Source: Thermanaerothrix sp. (GTDB lineage: Bacteria > Synergistota > Synergistia > Synergistales > Synergistaceae). From it: DNA of 55,664 nucleotides. Positions 30,324-55,664 of this stretch are shown here, piece after piece. Position 1 is the first letter of the stretch; each line of letters starts with the position of its first letter. The DNA lies in the NCBI GenBank assembly GCA_026417795.1, contig JAOACP010000012.1, forward strand, positions 1-55,664. Direction: 5' to 3'. The translations under genes were made by a program, and so were the position numbers. The notes under the pieces were generated by a model that ran no database searches, was not told the origin of the DNA, and was given only the letters and a program-made list of their open reading frames with translations.

Positions 30324-30593
30324 TCACCAGGGCTCCTCCCTGGCAACCTTCCTGTCCTCCAAGACCTCAAAGGGCGCCGCCTTCCTCTTAAGCTGGGCCT
30401 CATCGGCGGTCAACACCCTGACCTTGAGGAAACGGGAGGGGAAATCCACCTCCAACAGGTCTCCATCCTTAACCTCCGTGGAGGGCTTGGCAACCCTGCC
30501 GGCAACCCGAACCGCGCCGGCCTCCGCCATCTCCTGGGCCACGGTCCTTCTCTTAACTATCCTGGACAGCTTCAGGAACTTATCGACCCGCAA
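30324..30593 (-). CDS. rqcP: S4-domain RNA-binding protein RqcP (YabO-like)
   Basis: In Bacillus subtilis the homologue binds stalled 50S-peptidyl-tRNA complexes and works with RqcH to add alanine tails in ribosome-associated quality control. The chosen TTG at 30593 has a GGAGG eight bases upstream and gives 89 aa, beginning MRVDKFLKLSRIVKRRTVAQ, which matches the S4 domain pattern almost from the first residue; the longer open frame lacks support. The C-terminal tail is charged. It has its own promoter (30625-30653), and the upstream neighbour is an eRF1-like gene. Confidence 0.85.
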   Translation of the reverse strand: MRVDKFLKLSRIVKRRTVAQEMAEAGAVRVAGRVAKPSTEVKDGDLLEVDFPSRFLKVRVLTADEAQLKRKAAPFEVLEDRKVAREEPW

Positions 30594-30624
30594 GGCTTGT
30601 ACCTCCACTAACAATCTTCGATGG

Positions 30625-30653
30625 AGTATATCAAATCCGCGGAGGCTTTACAA
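30625..30653 (-). promoter_or_regulatory. Sigma-70 type promoter of rqcP
   Basis: On the minus strand TTGTAA (30648-30653) and TATACT (30625-30630) are separated by exactly 17 bases, placing transcription start about 25 bases before the ribosome binding site of rqcP. Confidence 0.75.
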
Positions 30654-30675
30654 CTTTACAAACTTCCCCAACTCC

Positions 30676-31752
30676 TCAACGGGGGTTTCTGAGCAGTCCA
30701 CCTATCCCCTGGTGTTCCCGGATGGCCGACGGCCTTCCAAGCACCACCACGTTGACGCCTCCCCGGATGGCCCGTCGGGCTATGGCCTCCTGCAGGTTCT
30801 CCTCCTCCCCCATGGCCCCGCCGCAGAGGGGGCATTGGGGCTCGTCAATCCCCAAGGCCCCGCAGGAGCCGCACCTCACACCCCTTAGGTCCTCCAGGTC
30901 CTCTATCACCAGCTTCATGAGCTCCCGGCGGTTCACGGCGTCTATGACCTGCCTAAGCCCCAGGGCGGAACGGATGGGCCCCTCCAATATCCTCTCCACC
31001 AGTTCCTCGGACTCCTGGAAGAACCGTCTCTCCATGGCCTCCCGGAGGTCTTCTTCCAGGCGGTGAAGGTCGTCGTCCCCCCTGAGCTTTATGGGACGCA
31101 CCGGAAGTCCCGTCTCCTGAAGTGCAGCCAAAGCCTCGGGCAGAAGCTCCTCTGAGGCGGAAAGCCAAACCTCCCGGCTGGGAAACTCCATGTCCAGCTC
31201 CTTTATCCGCCACTTGAGGTCCTTGAGGAACCGCCCCAGCGACGTCTCGGACCTGCGCTCTATCCGACGCTCCTCACCTCCCCTGAACCCCGCGTCCCTC
31301 ACGGGCCTTACTATCTCCTCCGAAATCCTATCGGCCTCGGAAAGGCGATGTCCAAAGCGGAATATCCTGGCATCCCCCCTGCGGAGGAGCACCATCCAGG
31401 CATCCCGGAAGGGCGAGAAGGCCTTCACGGCGGGCAGGATGGCCGGGGCATCCATGACGTACTCCCCATTGACGGGGTTGGGCAGCTCCAAAGCCGCGAA
31501 AGCCCCATCCCGGGCGGTGAAGAGGGCCACCCCCCTAGGGGCCCTCGGGTCCTTAAAGGTCCCAAACCTGTCGCTGAACTCATCCAGAGCCCTCGAAAGT
31601 CCCTGCTGGAACTCCCGGTCCACGCCGCGGGACCGATTCTTGAGCTCTATGGAGGCCTGCTTGGCGCTCATCCCCTGGAAGGACATGTAAAGGGAAAGCA
31701 CCCGGTCCTCCCCATCAAAGTCCTCAAGGATCTTCAACGCTGTCCGGGTCAT
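30676..31752 (-). CDS. eRF1-like bacterial release-factor homologue (baeRF/Vms1-like)
   Basis: A 358-residue protein with the layout of archaeal/eukaryotic release factor eRF1. Residues 73-135 resemble the eRF1 stretch entering domain 2 (RGVALFTARDGAFAALELP, then MVLLRRGDARIFRFG). The tripeptide that is GGQ in eRF1 appears here as GGE at 158-160, inside GFRGGEERRIERR, followed by the usual basic and amphipathic helix. Residues 256-355 match eRF1 domain 3: a RQVIDAVNRRELMKLVI helix-strand, a zinc ribbon CGSC/CPLC (C294, C297, C307, C310), and a closing EHQGIGGLLRN. The codon-reading NIKS domain is absent. It sits 53 bp downstream of rpoD with a GGAGG site and upstream of rqcP. Ribosome rescue or quality control is the likely sphere; catalysis is doubtful because of the GGE. 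Confidence 0.8.
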   Translation of the reverse strand: MTRTALKILEDFDGEDRVLSLYMSFQGMSAKQASIELKNRSRGVDREFQQGLSRALDEFSDRFGTFKDPRAPRGVALFTARDGAFAALELPNPVNGEYVMDAPAILPAVKAFSPFRDAWMVLLRRGDARIFRFGHRLSEADRISEEIVRPVRDAGFRGGEERRIERRSETSLGRFLKDLKWRIKELDMEFPSREVWLSASEELLPEALAALQETGLPVRPIKLRGDDDLHRLEEDLREAMERRFFQESEELVERILEGPIRSALGLRQVIDAVNRRELMKLVIEDLEDLRGVRCGSCGALGIDEPQCPLCGGAMGEEENLQEAIARRAIRGGVNVVVLGRPSAIREHQGIGGLLRNPR

Positions 31753-31805
31753 GGGGATCCCTCCTTCTCGACCTCTGACTTTAGCGGGGCACCCCTGAGA
31801 CTTGG

Positions 31806-32978
31806 TTAGTCCAGAAAGTCCCTCAGCCGCTTGCTCCTGCTGGGGTGCCTCAGCTTCCTCAACGCCTTGGCCTCTATCTGCCTTATCCTCTCCCTGGTAA
31901 CCCCGAAGCGCTTCCCCACCTCCTCAAGGGTATGGGAATGGCCGTCCTCAAGGCCGAACCGAAGCCTTAAGACCTCCCTCTCCCTGTCCGTGAGATCCTC
32001 AAGCATCTCCTCCAGTTGCTCCCGCAGTATCTGGTTCGCCGCCGCCTCATCGGGGCTTGGAAGGTCCTTGTCCTCCAGGAAGTCCCCCAGCTGGCTGTCC
32101 TCCTCCTCCCCTATGGGGGTCTCCAAGGACACGGGCTCCTGAGCTATCTTCTGGATCTCCTCCACCCGGTCGGCGGTAACCCCCATCTCCGCGGCTATCT
32201 CCTCCACCGATGGCTCCCGGCCAAGCCGCATCACCAATGAACGGGATACCCTTATGAGCTTGTTTATGGTCTCCACCATGTGCACCGGTATCCTTATGGT
32301 GCGGGCCTGGTCCGCTATGGCCCTGGTTATGGCCTGCCTTATCCACCAGGTGGCGTAGGTGCTGAACTTATAGCCCTTCCGGTAGTCGAACTTCTCCACC
32401 GCCCGTATAAGCCCCATGTTGCCCTCCTGGATCAGGTCCAGAAAGAGCATGCCCCGGCCTATGTACTTCTTGGCTATGCTCACCACCAGGCGAAGGTTGG
32501 CCTCCACAAGCTTGCTCTTGGCCGCCTCGTCCCCCGCCTCGACACCCTTGGCAAGCTCAACCTCCTCCTCCGGGGACAATAGGGGTATCCTGCCTATCTC
32601 CCTAAGGTACATCCTGACGGGGTCGGACAGGGGCAGATCCTCAAGGTCCCCCAGGTCGTCGGAGGCCAGGGTCATCTGGGGCAGCACGTCCTCCGCCAAC
32701 CCCTCCTGCGCCCTGGACTTGCTCTCGTCCACCACGTCTATCCCAAGCTCCATAAGGGTAAAGTAAAGGTTGTCCAGCACGTCTGCTGACAGGAGCTCCT
32801 TGGGCAGGTGCTTCTCTATGTCATCGTAGGTGACGGACCCCTTCTCCCTGGCGTCGTGAAGAAGGTCCCTCACGTTCTCTATGTAGTCCATCATGTTCTC
32901 CGAGGCTGCGGAGTCCTCGGTCACCATGACCTCACCATCGTCTCTGACGTCCCCGTTGCCTTCAAGCTTTTCCACCAT
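31806..32978 (-). CDS. rpoD: RNA polymerase primary sigma factor
   Basis: Housekeeping sigma-70 factor. The 390-residue protein has a region 1.1-like start, the region 1.2 stretch [17 protein letters not shown], region 2 with [41 protein letters not shown] in outline, region 3, and region 4 with the -35-binding helix [19 protein letters not shown]. The promoters proposed here (TTGACA/TATAAT types) match its specificity. It follows dnaG by 11 bp, the classic macromolecular-synthesis pairing. Confidence 0.97.
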
Positions 32979-32989
32979 GTCGGACGCCC

Positions 32990-34735
32990 CTACCCCCTTC
33001 CCTTTATCTTCCTTGCCAGGTTGAAGAACTCCTCCATCTCATGGTTTTCCAAGGACTCTCCCCTGGCCATGCGTTCCTTAAGATATCTGTAACGTCTCAT
33101 CTGGTGATTCCTCTCTAGCCCCGCCAGGATCTCCCCCACCGGGTCGTCCACCATCAGCTGGTCTAAAAACGCCCCCCCCTTGGCTATTATGGCGGGATAA
33201 ACCCTGTCCCCCATCACGGCCCACCGGGACTCCATCTCCCCCGGGTCCTCCCCGCAAAGGAGCGCAAAGGCCAAGGTCCTGGCCTCATCCCTCCTGAGCA
33301 GGGGTATCACCCGCTCCGGAGGCAGAACCCCACGAAGCTCCCGGCGGTACCAAAGGGCGGCGCACAGCCCCCACTCCCAAAGGTCATCCTTGTCCTCCTG
33401 GGGAGAGTCCCCCGGAACACCCGCAGAAGACCCATTGCCCGACGCCCTGCCGGGCGGCTCTCCTACAGCGGCAGGTCCTAGGGACCCACCCCTGCCCCGG
33501 CCAACTCGATCCAACTCCCTTTCCAACTGGTGGGGCAACACCCCAAGCACCTCCGCCACCTTCGGTATGTGTTCCTTAAGATACAGGGGCGAAAGGCTCG
33601 CAAGACCCTCCAAGAGCTCCCGCTGCCCCTTAAGATCCATCCCCAAGGCGCCGGACCCCACCCTGGAGGCGGCGTGAAAGACCGGCAGGGGCAACGCGGA
33701 TTCCAGGGCTGCCTTGAACTTCGATACCCCATCGGGGGCGGACAGCAACTCGTCTGGATCCTTCCCGGAAGGGATCCGCACCACCGCCACCTCAACGCCC
33801 ATTCGATGCAGCATGTACATCCCCCGTACCGCCGCCTCCTGACCCGCCAGGTCCGAGTCGAAACACACGGCGCAGCGGTCCGAGTGCCGGGCTATCATGG
33901 CGCACTGCTCCTCCGTGAGGGACGTGCCAAGGCACGCCACCGTCTCGTTGAACCCCTTGAGATGGCAGCGGATGGCGTCCATGTAGCCCTCCACCAGTAT
34001 CACCCTTCCCCGCTCCCTTATGGCCTGTTTGGCCATGTTCAAAAGATACAGGAACTTCCTCTTCTCGAACAGGGGGCCCTCGGGGCTGTTGACGTACTTG
34101 GCCCCTTCACCGTCCACCAAACGGCCTCCAAACCCCACAAGCCGTCCGGTCTCGTTCCTCAAGGGGAATATAACCCTTCCCCGGAACCTGTCATAGGGCC
34201 CCCGCTGTCCCTCCACCAAAAGCCCCGCGTCAAGAGCGTCTTTCACGCTGAACCCCCTGGAGGCCAGATGATCCCTTAGGGCCCCCCAGGACATGGGGGC
34301 CCAGCCCAGCTCAAAGAGCTCAAAGGCCCGTGGGTCCAGACCCCTTCGGCTGAGGTATCCCTGGGCCGCGGCACCCTCCTTAGAGTTAAGCCTGTCACGG
34401 AAGAACCGCAGCGCCTCCTCCAGGATAGGAAGGCGGGAGGAAACCCTCTTATCTACCTGCACCCCCGCCATCTGGGCCAGCTTCTCCAGCGCCTCCGGGA
34501 AGGACAGGTTCTCCATGGCCATGACGAAGGAGAATATGTCTCCCCCCTTGCCGCATCCGAAGCAGTGATATGTTTGGCGTTCCTGGGATACCGTAAACGA
34601 GGGTGTCTTCTCGGAGTGGAAGGGACACAGGGCCACGTAGTGTTTACCCCTCTTGCGCAGGGGCAAATAGGCGGACACCACGTCCACGATATCCAGTCTT
34701 TCCTTTATGAGGCGCACGTGGTCGTTCAAAGCCAC
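32990..34735 (-). CDS. dnaG: DNA primase
   Basis: Makes RNA primers at the replication fork. From GTG at 34735 it is 581 aa; TTG at 34729 is an equal candidate because GGGGGTG lies closer to an ideal distance from it. The open frame extends 39 codons further up, but those residues derive from leader hairpin DNA. The CHC2-type zinc finger is CPFH at 37-40 with CFGC at 58-61. The Toprim motif is [10 protein letters not shown] near 247-256. The C-terminal third should bind DnaB helicase. Cotranscribed with rpoD. Confidence 0.95.
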
Positions 34736-34752
34736 ACCCCCGGCAAACCAAG

Positions 34753-34792
34753 GATCCGCAGGGGGTTTCCCACCGCCCCTGCGGATCTTTTT
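34753..34792 (+). terminator. Plus-strand terminator-like hairpin in the dnaG leader
   Basis: Arms 34753-34764 and 34776-34787 form a perfect 12-bp stem, followed on the plus strand by five Ts. No plus-strand gene precedes it. On the minus strand it is a hairpin just before the dnaG start, preceded by AAAAA. Confidence 0.55.
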
Positions 34793-34816
34793 ACGCTGAA
34801 ACGTCCCAAAGGGCCC

Positions 34817-34845
34817 AAAAGCCCCCTGGGAGAATCCCAGGGGGC
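34817..34845 (-). terminator. Rho-independent terminator of hppA
   Basis: Perfect 11-bp stem (34821-34831 with 34835-34845, loop of 3) followed on the minus strand by TTTT, 29 bases after the hppA stop. Confidence 0.8.
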
Positions 34846-34873
34846 CGCGCATTTCTCGCTCAACGGTTCAAGC

Positions 34874-54918: not shown

Positions 54919-55645
54919 TTAAGGCCCGATGGATGCCTCGCATATGCGGCGAAGCATCTCCTCAAAGGACCATCCGAAGGCCTTGGCGGACTTAGGCACC
55001 AAGCTTGTGGCGGTCATGCCCGGCGCGGTGTTCACCTCCAACACGTAGGCCCTGCCGGTACCCTCCTCCAACCGCAGATCCACCCGGGAGTACACCGAAC
55101 AGCCCATGGCGTTGTAGGCCTTCACCGCCGCTTGGGACACTTCCCGAAGCTCCTCTTCCGTCAGTGGTGCGGGACAAAGGTACTCGGTCATGCCGGGGGT
55201 GTACTTGCTGTCGTAATCGTAGAAGCCCCCAAGGGGCCTTATCTCCACCGGCGGAAGCGGCATGGCCCCGTCCTCGCCGTCGAAGACCGCCACGGTGAGC
55301 TCCCTGCCAGCTATGAACCTCTCCGCCACCACCTTAGGGTCGTAGCGCCTGGCCTCCACCAGAGCCCCTTCAATCTGACGGTGATCGTCCACAATGCCTA
55401 TTCCCACGGTGCTTCCGCACCGGCAAGGTTTGACCACCATCTTGCCCCACCTATCAAGGGCCCCGGCGAGAAGGTCCATGGGGGATCCGCCCTCATCAAC
55501 CACGACTCCCGGCGGTATCAAAACCCCCCGGGACTCAAGGACCGCCCTTGTCACGTCCTTGTCCATGCAAGCCCAGCAAGCCCCCCACCTAGGGCCGGTG
55601 TGAGGTATCCCATGGGCCTCCAACAGACACTGCAGGGTTCCATCC
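54919..55645 (-). CDS. ddl: D-alanine-D-alanine ligase, 5' end cut
   Basis: ATP-grasp ligase making the D-Ala-D-Ala dipeptide for peptidoglycan. About 241 genomic codons remain; the N-terminal part is lost. Visible are DGTLQCLLEAHGIPHTG, the ATP-binding loop KPCRCGSTVGI with the catalytic Ser, an omega loop FYDYDSKY with Tyr (Phe would suggest D-lactate), and EVNTAPGMTATSLVPKSA near the C-terminus. The apparent ATG at 55662 lies in the adapter and is not a real start. Confidence 0.92.
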
Positions 55646-55664
55646 CTGTCGCTTATACACATCT
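55646..55664. other. Nextera mosaic-end adapter, one mismatch (artefact)
   Basis: The last 19 bases match the reverse complement of the mosaic end except for G instead of T at 55651. It creates a false start codon for ddl. Confidence 0.93.

Follow-up and report, generated by a model that had tools for sequence, protein, structure and literature searches.

Three Balon proteins, those of P. urativorans, Msmeg1130 and Rv2629, have all been solved on ribosomes, where they lie in the A site, and A-site binding by Msmeg1130 and Rv2629 is accompanied by a reduction in translation of about 15-fold (PMC10901736). The loop of Balon forms a lasso around A2602, outside the catalytic centre, and Balon genes have been reported in stress contexts (PMC10901736). 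Among the baeRF families, family 10 has been singled out for its well-conserved Gln, and the loop is poorly conserved in the families presumed to be inactive (PMC6514570).

The window, by which we mean the whole stretch of 55,664 nucleotides analysed here, encodes a protein that sequence comparison and structure prediction place in baeRF family 10. It shares with the Balon family (P. urativorans Balon, Msmeg1130 and Rv2629) the predicted aeRF1 fold, the lack of GGQ and NIKS, and an acidic residue at the column of Glu161. It differs from the family 10 description in that the column of the conserved Gln holds this Glu161, with a three-residue insertion beside it. We refer to its loop as EE-type, and to the loop with the conserved Gln as Q-type. 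Neither PMC6514570 nor PMC10901736 describes the EE-type loop in its main text, and we provisionally regard it as new. Gln versus Glu or Asp in a single loop column, together with the insertion, provides a simple marker that may split releasing from silencing members inside one bacterial aeRF1-like family, and with such a marker it becomes directly testable which baeRF proteins are active. The protein is likely of the Balon-like kind, which is here zinc-ribbon-bearing and extended to Synergistota.

Family assignment and predicted fold

The coordinates first given for the protein do contain an open reading frame, of 358 codons; the strand, which had not been given, is the minus strand (Table 1). 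The gene is present as a single copy in its genome. Comparison with its nearest relative (L002, 84% identical) yields a dN of 0.085 and a dS of 0.50, and the gene is therefore under purifying selection. A set of 16 Synergistota orthologues was assembled by full-length similarity alone, and the gene is carried by 16 of 188 Synergistota genomes in one survey and 16 of 151 in another.

Pfam PF18854 (baeRF_family10) matches all 16 orthologues (best E = 1.8e-16), 13 of them above the cut-off, and matches the window protein by itself weakly (20.6 bits, cut-off 27.1). The single protein gives a full-length match to the NCBIfam Msmeg1130 (Balon) model (E = 1.9e-13), but its scores lie far below the NCBIfam Balon equivalog cut-offs (50.2 against 480, and 23.9 against 320). 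When a profile built from the 16 orthologues was compared with PDB sequences, significant hits were obtained for Msmeg1130 (E = 5.3e-24), Rv2629 (E = 1.5e-7), aRF1 (3agk, E = 1.8e-6) and P. urativorans Balon (E = 4.3e-4). The acVLRF1 profile matches weakly, with 19.6 bits against a cut-off of 125, over the middle domain and the last part of domain 1, and the GGxSQ motif of these peptidyl-tRNA hydrolases is absent from the window protein.

The AlphaFold model (mean pLDDT 86, pTM 0.84) predicts a three-domain aeRF1 fold. A fold search with this model returned Msmeg1130 (Balon) as the best hit (E = 1.6e-22, TM = 0.77), followed by aRF1 (4af1, E = 2.0e-16). The likeness to eRF1, first described as running from the end of domain 1 through domain 3, is thus significant by sequence and by fold, and it reaches further than described, since the similarity includes domain 1 (residues 6–355). 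Pfam eRF1_3 is matched by 13 of the 16 orthologues. The zinc ribbon and the closing GIGGLLR, both noticed at the outset, hold up well: none of the 16 Synergistota orthologues departs from the four Cys residues or from the G-x-G-x-x-x-R pattern. The domain order and the zinc ribbon are those of the Q-type members of PF18854. Msmeg1130 resembles the window protein over its full length, but lacks the four-Cys zinc ribbon, which is intact here, and the GxEE loop of the window protein is longer. Neither NIKS nor GGQ occurs in the translation of the window protein, whose loop reads GFRGGEERR. Fold and the following helix with its conserved Arg residues are nevertheless shared with aRF1/eRF1.

Table 1. 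Positions of the features discussed, numbered along the window.
Feature	Position	Strand	Basis and remarks
CDS eRF1-like (baeRF family 10, EE-type)	30676..31752	minus	358 aa; ATG at 31752, stop at 30676 included
N-terminal domain, ~residues 1-112	31417..31752	minus	Secondary structure and full-length matches; limits approximate
Middle RNase H-like domain, ~residues 113-225	31078..31416	minus	Profile, model and fold matches; limits approximate
C-terminal eRF1 domain 3-like part, ~residues 226-358	30679..31077	minus	Limits approximate
Loop 145-158, PTC-reaching in the aeRF1 fold	31279..31320	minus	Model; residues 152-157 with pLDDT <50
Gly158-Gly159-Glu160 (GGE)	31273..31281	minus	Gly159 varies, Gly158 does not; within or next to the three-residue insertion
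Glu161, Gln column of Q-type members	31270..31272	minus	Alignments and helix register
Zinc ribbon Cys294-x2-Cys297 ... Cys307-x2-Cys310	30823..30873	minus	Orthologue alignment
GIGGLLR, residues 349-355, within C-terminal G-x-G-x-x-x-R	30688..30708	minus	Orthologue alignment
Single S4-domain protein, 96 aa, RqcP/Hsp15-like	30324..30614	minus	Next gene downstream, 15/15 relatives
rpoD primary sigma factor	31806..32978	minus	Next gene upstream; same place in 14/15 relatives, fifteenth contig ends earlier
dnaG primase	32990..34852	minus	Upstream of rpoD

Register and conservation of the loop

Family 10 members were sampled from Desulfobacterota, Planctomycetota, Calditrichota/KSB1, Atribacterota and Synergistota with the Pfam profile, whose selection does not depend solely on the loop. 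The loops in this sample are of the Q-type, GGW[SA]Q-x-R-[YF]-[QEA]-R (26 rows), of the EE-type, [GA]GW-YGL-EE-RRIER, or of a few other kinds. Relative to the 26 Q-type members, the aligned loop of the window lineage carries acidic residues and a three-residue insertion. A profile-profile alignment of the two types places Glu161 opposite the Gln and the insertion at residues 158–160, and a HMMER alignment with aRF1 puts the insertion at 157–159 and pairs Glu161 with the second Gln of GGQSQ. The helix in the predicted structure of the Q-type protein L076 (pLDDT 90) starts at Trp173, which makes Gln175 its third residue; the corresponding helix of the window model starts at Gly159 and has Glu161 in third place. 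None of the alignments supports Glu160 as the equivalent of the Gln. The aRF1 motif VPGKHKMGGQSQRRYER aligns without a gap to the Q-type VPGRHDQGGWAQMRYQR, and therefore the catalytic Gln of GGQ faces the Trp in Q-type members and, in the window protein, Phe156 (Gly159 by helix register) rather than a Glu. Because aRF1 matches the Q-type loop without a gap, we infer that the change ran from Gln to Glu.

These results bear on the proposal that Gly-Gly-Glu at residues 158–160 is an altered GGQ at the tip of the loop. Residues and codons (GGA GGT GAG) are as described, one base away from the position first given, but the equivalence with GGQ does not survive, as Glu161 is placed in the Gln column by the alignments and, in two AlphaFold models, by the register of the helix. 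For the same reason the accompanying point that one base separates Gln from Glu is irrelevant, Glu160 not being the residue in that column. Nor does the model put residues 158–160 at the tip: the loop residues of low confidence are 152–157, and 159–161 already form the first turn of the next helix, so that 158–160 are predicted to lie at the loop’s end.

The consensus of the 16 Synergistota orthologues is G-x-x-G-[GLM]-E-E-x-R-[IL]-[EK]-R, in which Gly155, Gly158, Glu160, Glu161, Arg163 and Arg166 are invariant (16/16), and a second Gly precedes the Glu in only four. The wider comparison covers 36 EE-type proteins (L140 and L141 left out) that no loop pattern had fetched but whose EE-type label came from a loop regular expression, so that columns 155, 158 and 161 are partly rule-chosen outside Synergistota; in this set Gly158 and Arg166 are invariant, and the Glu161 column holds Glu in 35 proteins and Gln in one. 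Residue 160 is Glu in 32 of the 36, whereas residue 159 is Gly in only four. The stretch 144–163 is 20 residues long in all 36, and loop length is therefore constant. With Gly158 and Glu161 kept and Gly159 mostly replaced, the loop is constrained, but not as GGE. A search of genome contigs with the protein by itself retrieved no relatives. An alignment query did retrieve some, but because its patterns contained the loop itself, the 13 distant loci obtained in this way do not enter these counts.

Outside Synergistota, the GxEE loop is found in Atribacterota, Calditrichota/KSB1, some Desulfobacterota and Planctomycetota. In a quick tree from which odd and long rows were removed and in which the loop columns were kept, a single branch separates the EE rows from the others (SH-aLRT 96); the EE-type needs two changes when the loop columns are dropped and long outgroups included, and four with the fullest set. 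A single origin of the EE-type loop is likely. Msmeg1130 stands beside the Synergistota clade in the quick trees (84 and 92), a placement that rests on long branches.

Some loops in the sample deserve separate mention. In the Q-type members (L072-L076, L078, L082-L084, L116, L123-L139), a Trp lies opposite the catalytic Gln of aRF1, and their conserved Gln sits two places past that column, which leaves their own activity uncertain. The one protein with Gln in the Glu161 column (L147:239-1384, EQARIARH, from the Planctomycetota sample) keeps the three-residue insertion, GGWSGYEQARIARH, and may be an intermediate. L140 and L141 carry a long Gly/Ala/Pro/Arg-rich stretch within the loop, ahead of GGYHGLDERRIERH.

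Likeness to ribosome-silencing factors

It had been suggested at first sight that a bacterial eRF1-family protein without the catalytic Gln may act in hibernation, and the closest solved relatives of the window protein are indeed hibernation factors. We consider it reasonably probable that it is a Balon-like ribosome-silencing factor, occupying the A site without peptidyl-tRNA hydrolysis. A baeRF family 10 member with the three-domain aeRF1 fold, it would enter the ribosomal A site and place the loop of its middle domain beside the peptidyl-transferase centre, where, hydrolysing no peptidyl-tRNA, it would hold ribosomes idle or protected during stress. It may contact EF-Tu and, by analogy, the EE-type loop may play the part of the Balon lasso around A2602.

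Several observations favour such a Balon-like role. Msmeg1130 scores better with the EE-type than with the Q-type profile (107 vs 95 bits), as does P. urativorans Balon (34 vs 23 bits), and archaeal aRF1 prefers the Q-type profile (63 vs 49 bits). The residue in the Glu161 column is Glu in Msmeg1130 (alignment confidence fair), Asp in Rv2629, within AGWNGYGD (confidence good for most of the string), and Asp in P. urativorans Balon, within NGLYTTGD (confidence low). The purifying selection on the gene and the presence of an HPF gene elsewhere in the genome point the same way. One EE-type gene (L044) follows dnaK-grpE-clpB, which also counts for this role because a stress context has been reported for Balon genes (PMC10901736). 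Other observations speak against it. Rv2629 slightly favours the Q-type over the EE-type profile (60 vs 55), the Balon loops align at the Glu161 column with no more than moderate confidence overall, and the gene context in Synergistota is of housekeeping kind, with no stress operon and HPF not adjacent. The loop is strictly conserved in sequence and length, unlike in the inactive baeRF families of PMC6514570. The HP motif and the bL27 trap of Balon could not be located in the window protein; no His-Pro dipeptide occurs in its N-terminal domain, the exact definitions of the Balon features not being to hand. As regards the EF-Tu-binding beta-hairpin of Balon, domain 3 of the window protein carries a zinc ribbon.

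Gene neighbourhood and alternative functions

The Synergistota gene order is hppA-dnaG-rpoD-eRF1L-S4-(eno or ridA)-rex-yajC-secD-secF. In 12 Synergistota relatives without the eRF1-like gene (L163-L174), the S4 gene is present throughout and directly follows rpoD in 10, and we read this as a clean presence or absence of the eRF1-like gene at a single site of the operon (window 30324–31806), by loss or by a single gain. As the gene sits between rpoD and the RqcP-like S4 gene, it may have a part in quality control. Outside Synergistota, the neighbours of EE-type genes include a sigma-70-like gene (L040), a galT-like gene and, in Atribacterota, MtnA-like and PNP genes; BLAST with the window’s own S4 protein found no S4 neighbour there.

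This arrangement invites the reading that the protein is a peptidyl-tRNA-releasing factor that would use Glu161 (or Glu160) in place of Gln, perhaps at the release step of bacterial RQC, which is the least well understood (PMC11317155). The S4 gene adjoins it in all 15 Synergistota relatives, RqcH is encoded elsewhere in the genome, and the loop is strictly kept in sequence and length over several phyla, a kind of conservation that PMC6514570 takes as the sign of an active loop; L147, moreover, has Gln in the same inserted loop. We nevertheless regard such a release function as quite unlikely. Acidic residues occupy the Glu161 column in three Balon proteins, and the S4 gene persists, mostly directly after rpoD, in relatives that lack the eRF1-like gene and was not found by BLAST with the window’s own S4 protein beside EE-type genes outside Synergistota. 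Furthermore, the gene is found in only 16 of 188 Synergistota genomes, yet RqcH-RqcP occur in most of the phylum (PMC11317155). That the GxEE loop would be an active site in itself and make the protein a Glu-based peptidyl-tRNA hydrolase, freeing nascent chains from 50S complexes on which RqcH and the neighbouring S4 protein act, and thereby supply the missing bacterial RQC release step, seems to us very improbable.

A Pelota/Dom34-like rescue factor would likewise enter the A site and hydrolyse nothing, but would do so on stalled ribosomes, helping to split or clear them with EF-Tu or another GTPase. The fold, the absent catalytic Gln and the adjoining S4 gene, whose class binds stalled 50S subunits (PMC11317155), are consistent with this. 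It appears unlikely, however, given that Balon is by far the closer of the two in sequence and fold and that no partner GTPase gene is found among the identified neighbours. To an eRF1-type protein in which GGQ has become GGE at residues 158–160 we give hardly any credence, and this reading was rejected on register. The string does sit in the right loop, and Glu160 is widely kept, but the Gly-Gly pair is found in only 4 of the 36 relatives (and in 4 of the 16 Synergistota orthologues), and unsupervised alignments assign the three residues to the insertion or its flank, the helix register agreeing on Glu161 as the Gln column. A literature search on GGE or Q185E release-factor mutants yielded no usable mutant study.

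A phage search gave no match, and a plasmid search gave one, at 28% identity. Both ends of the contig (window 1–19 and 55646–55664) carry the Nextera transposase adapter AGATGTGTATAAGAGACAG, with one base differing at the right end, which is an assembly artefact. The last open reading frame (54919–55662) begins inside the right-end adapter.
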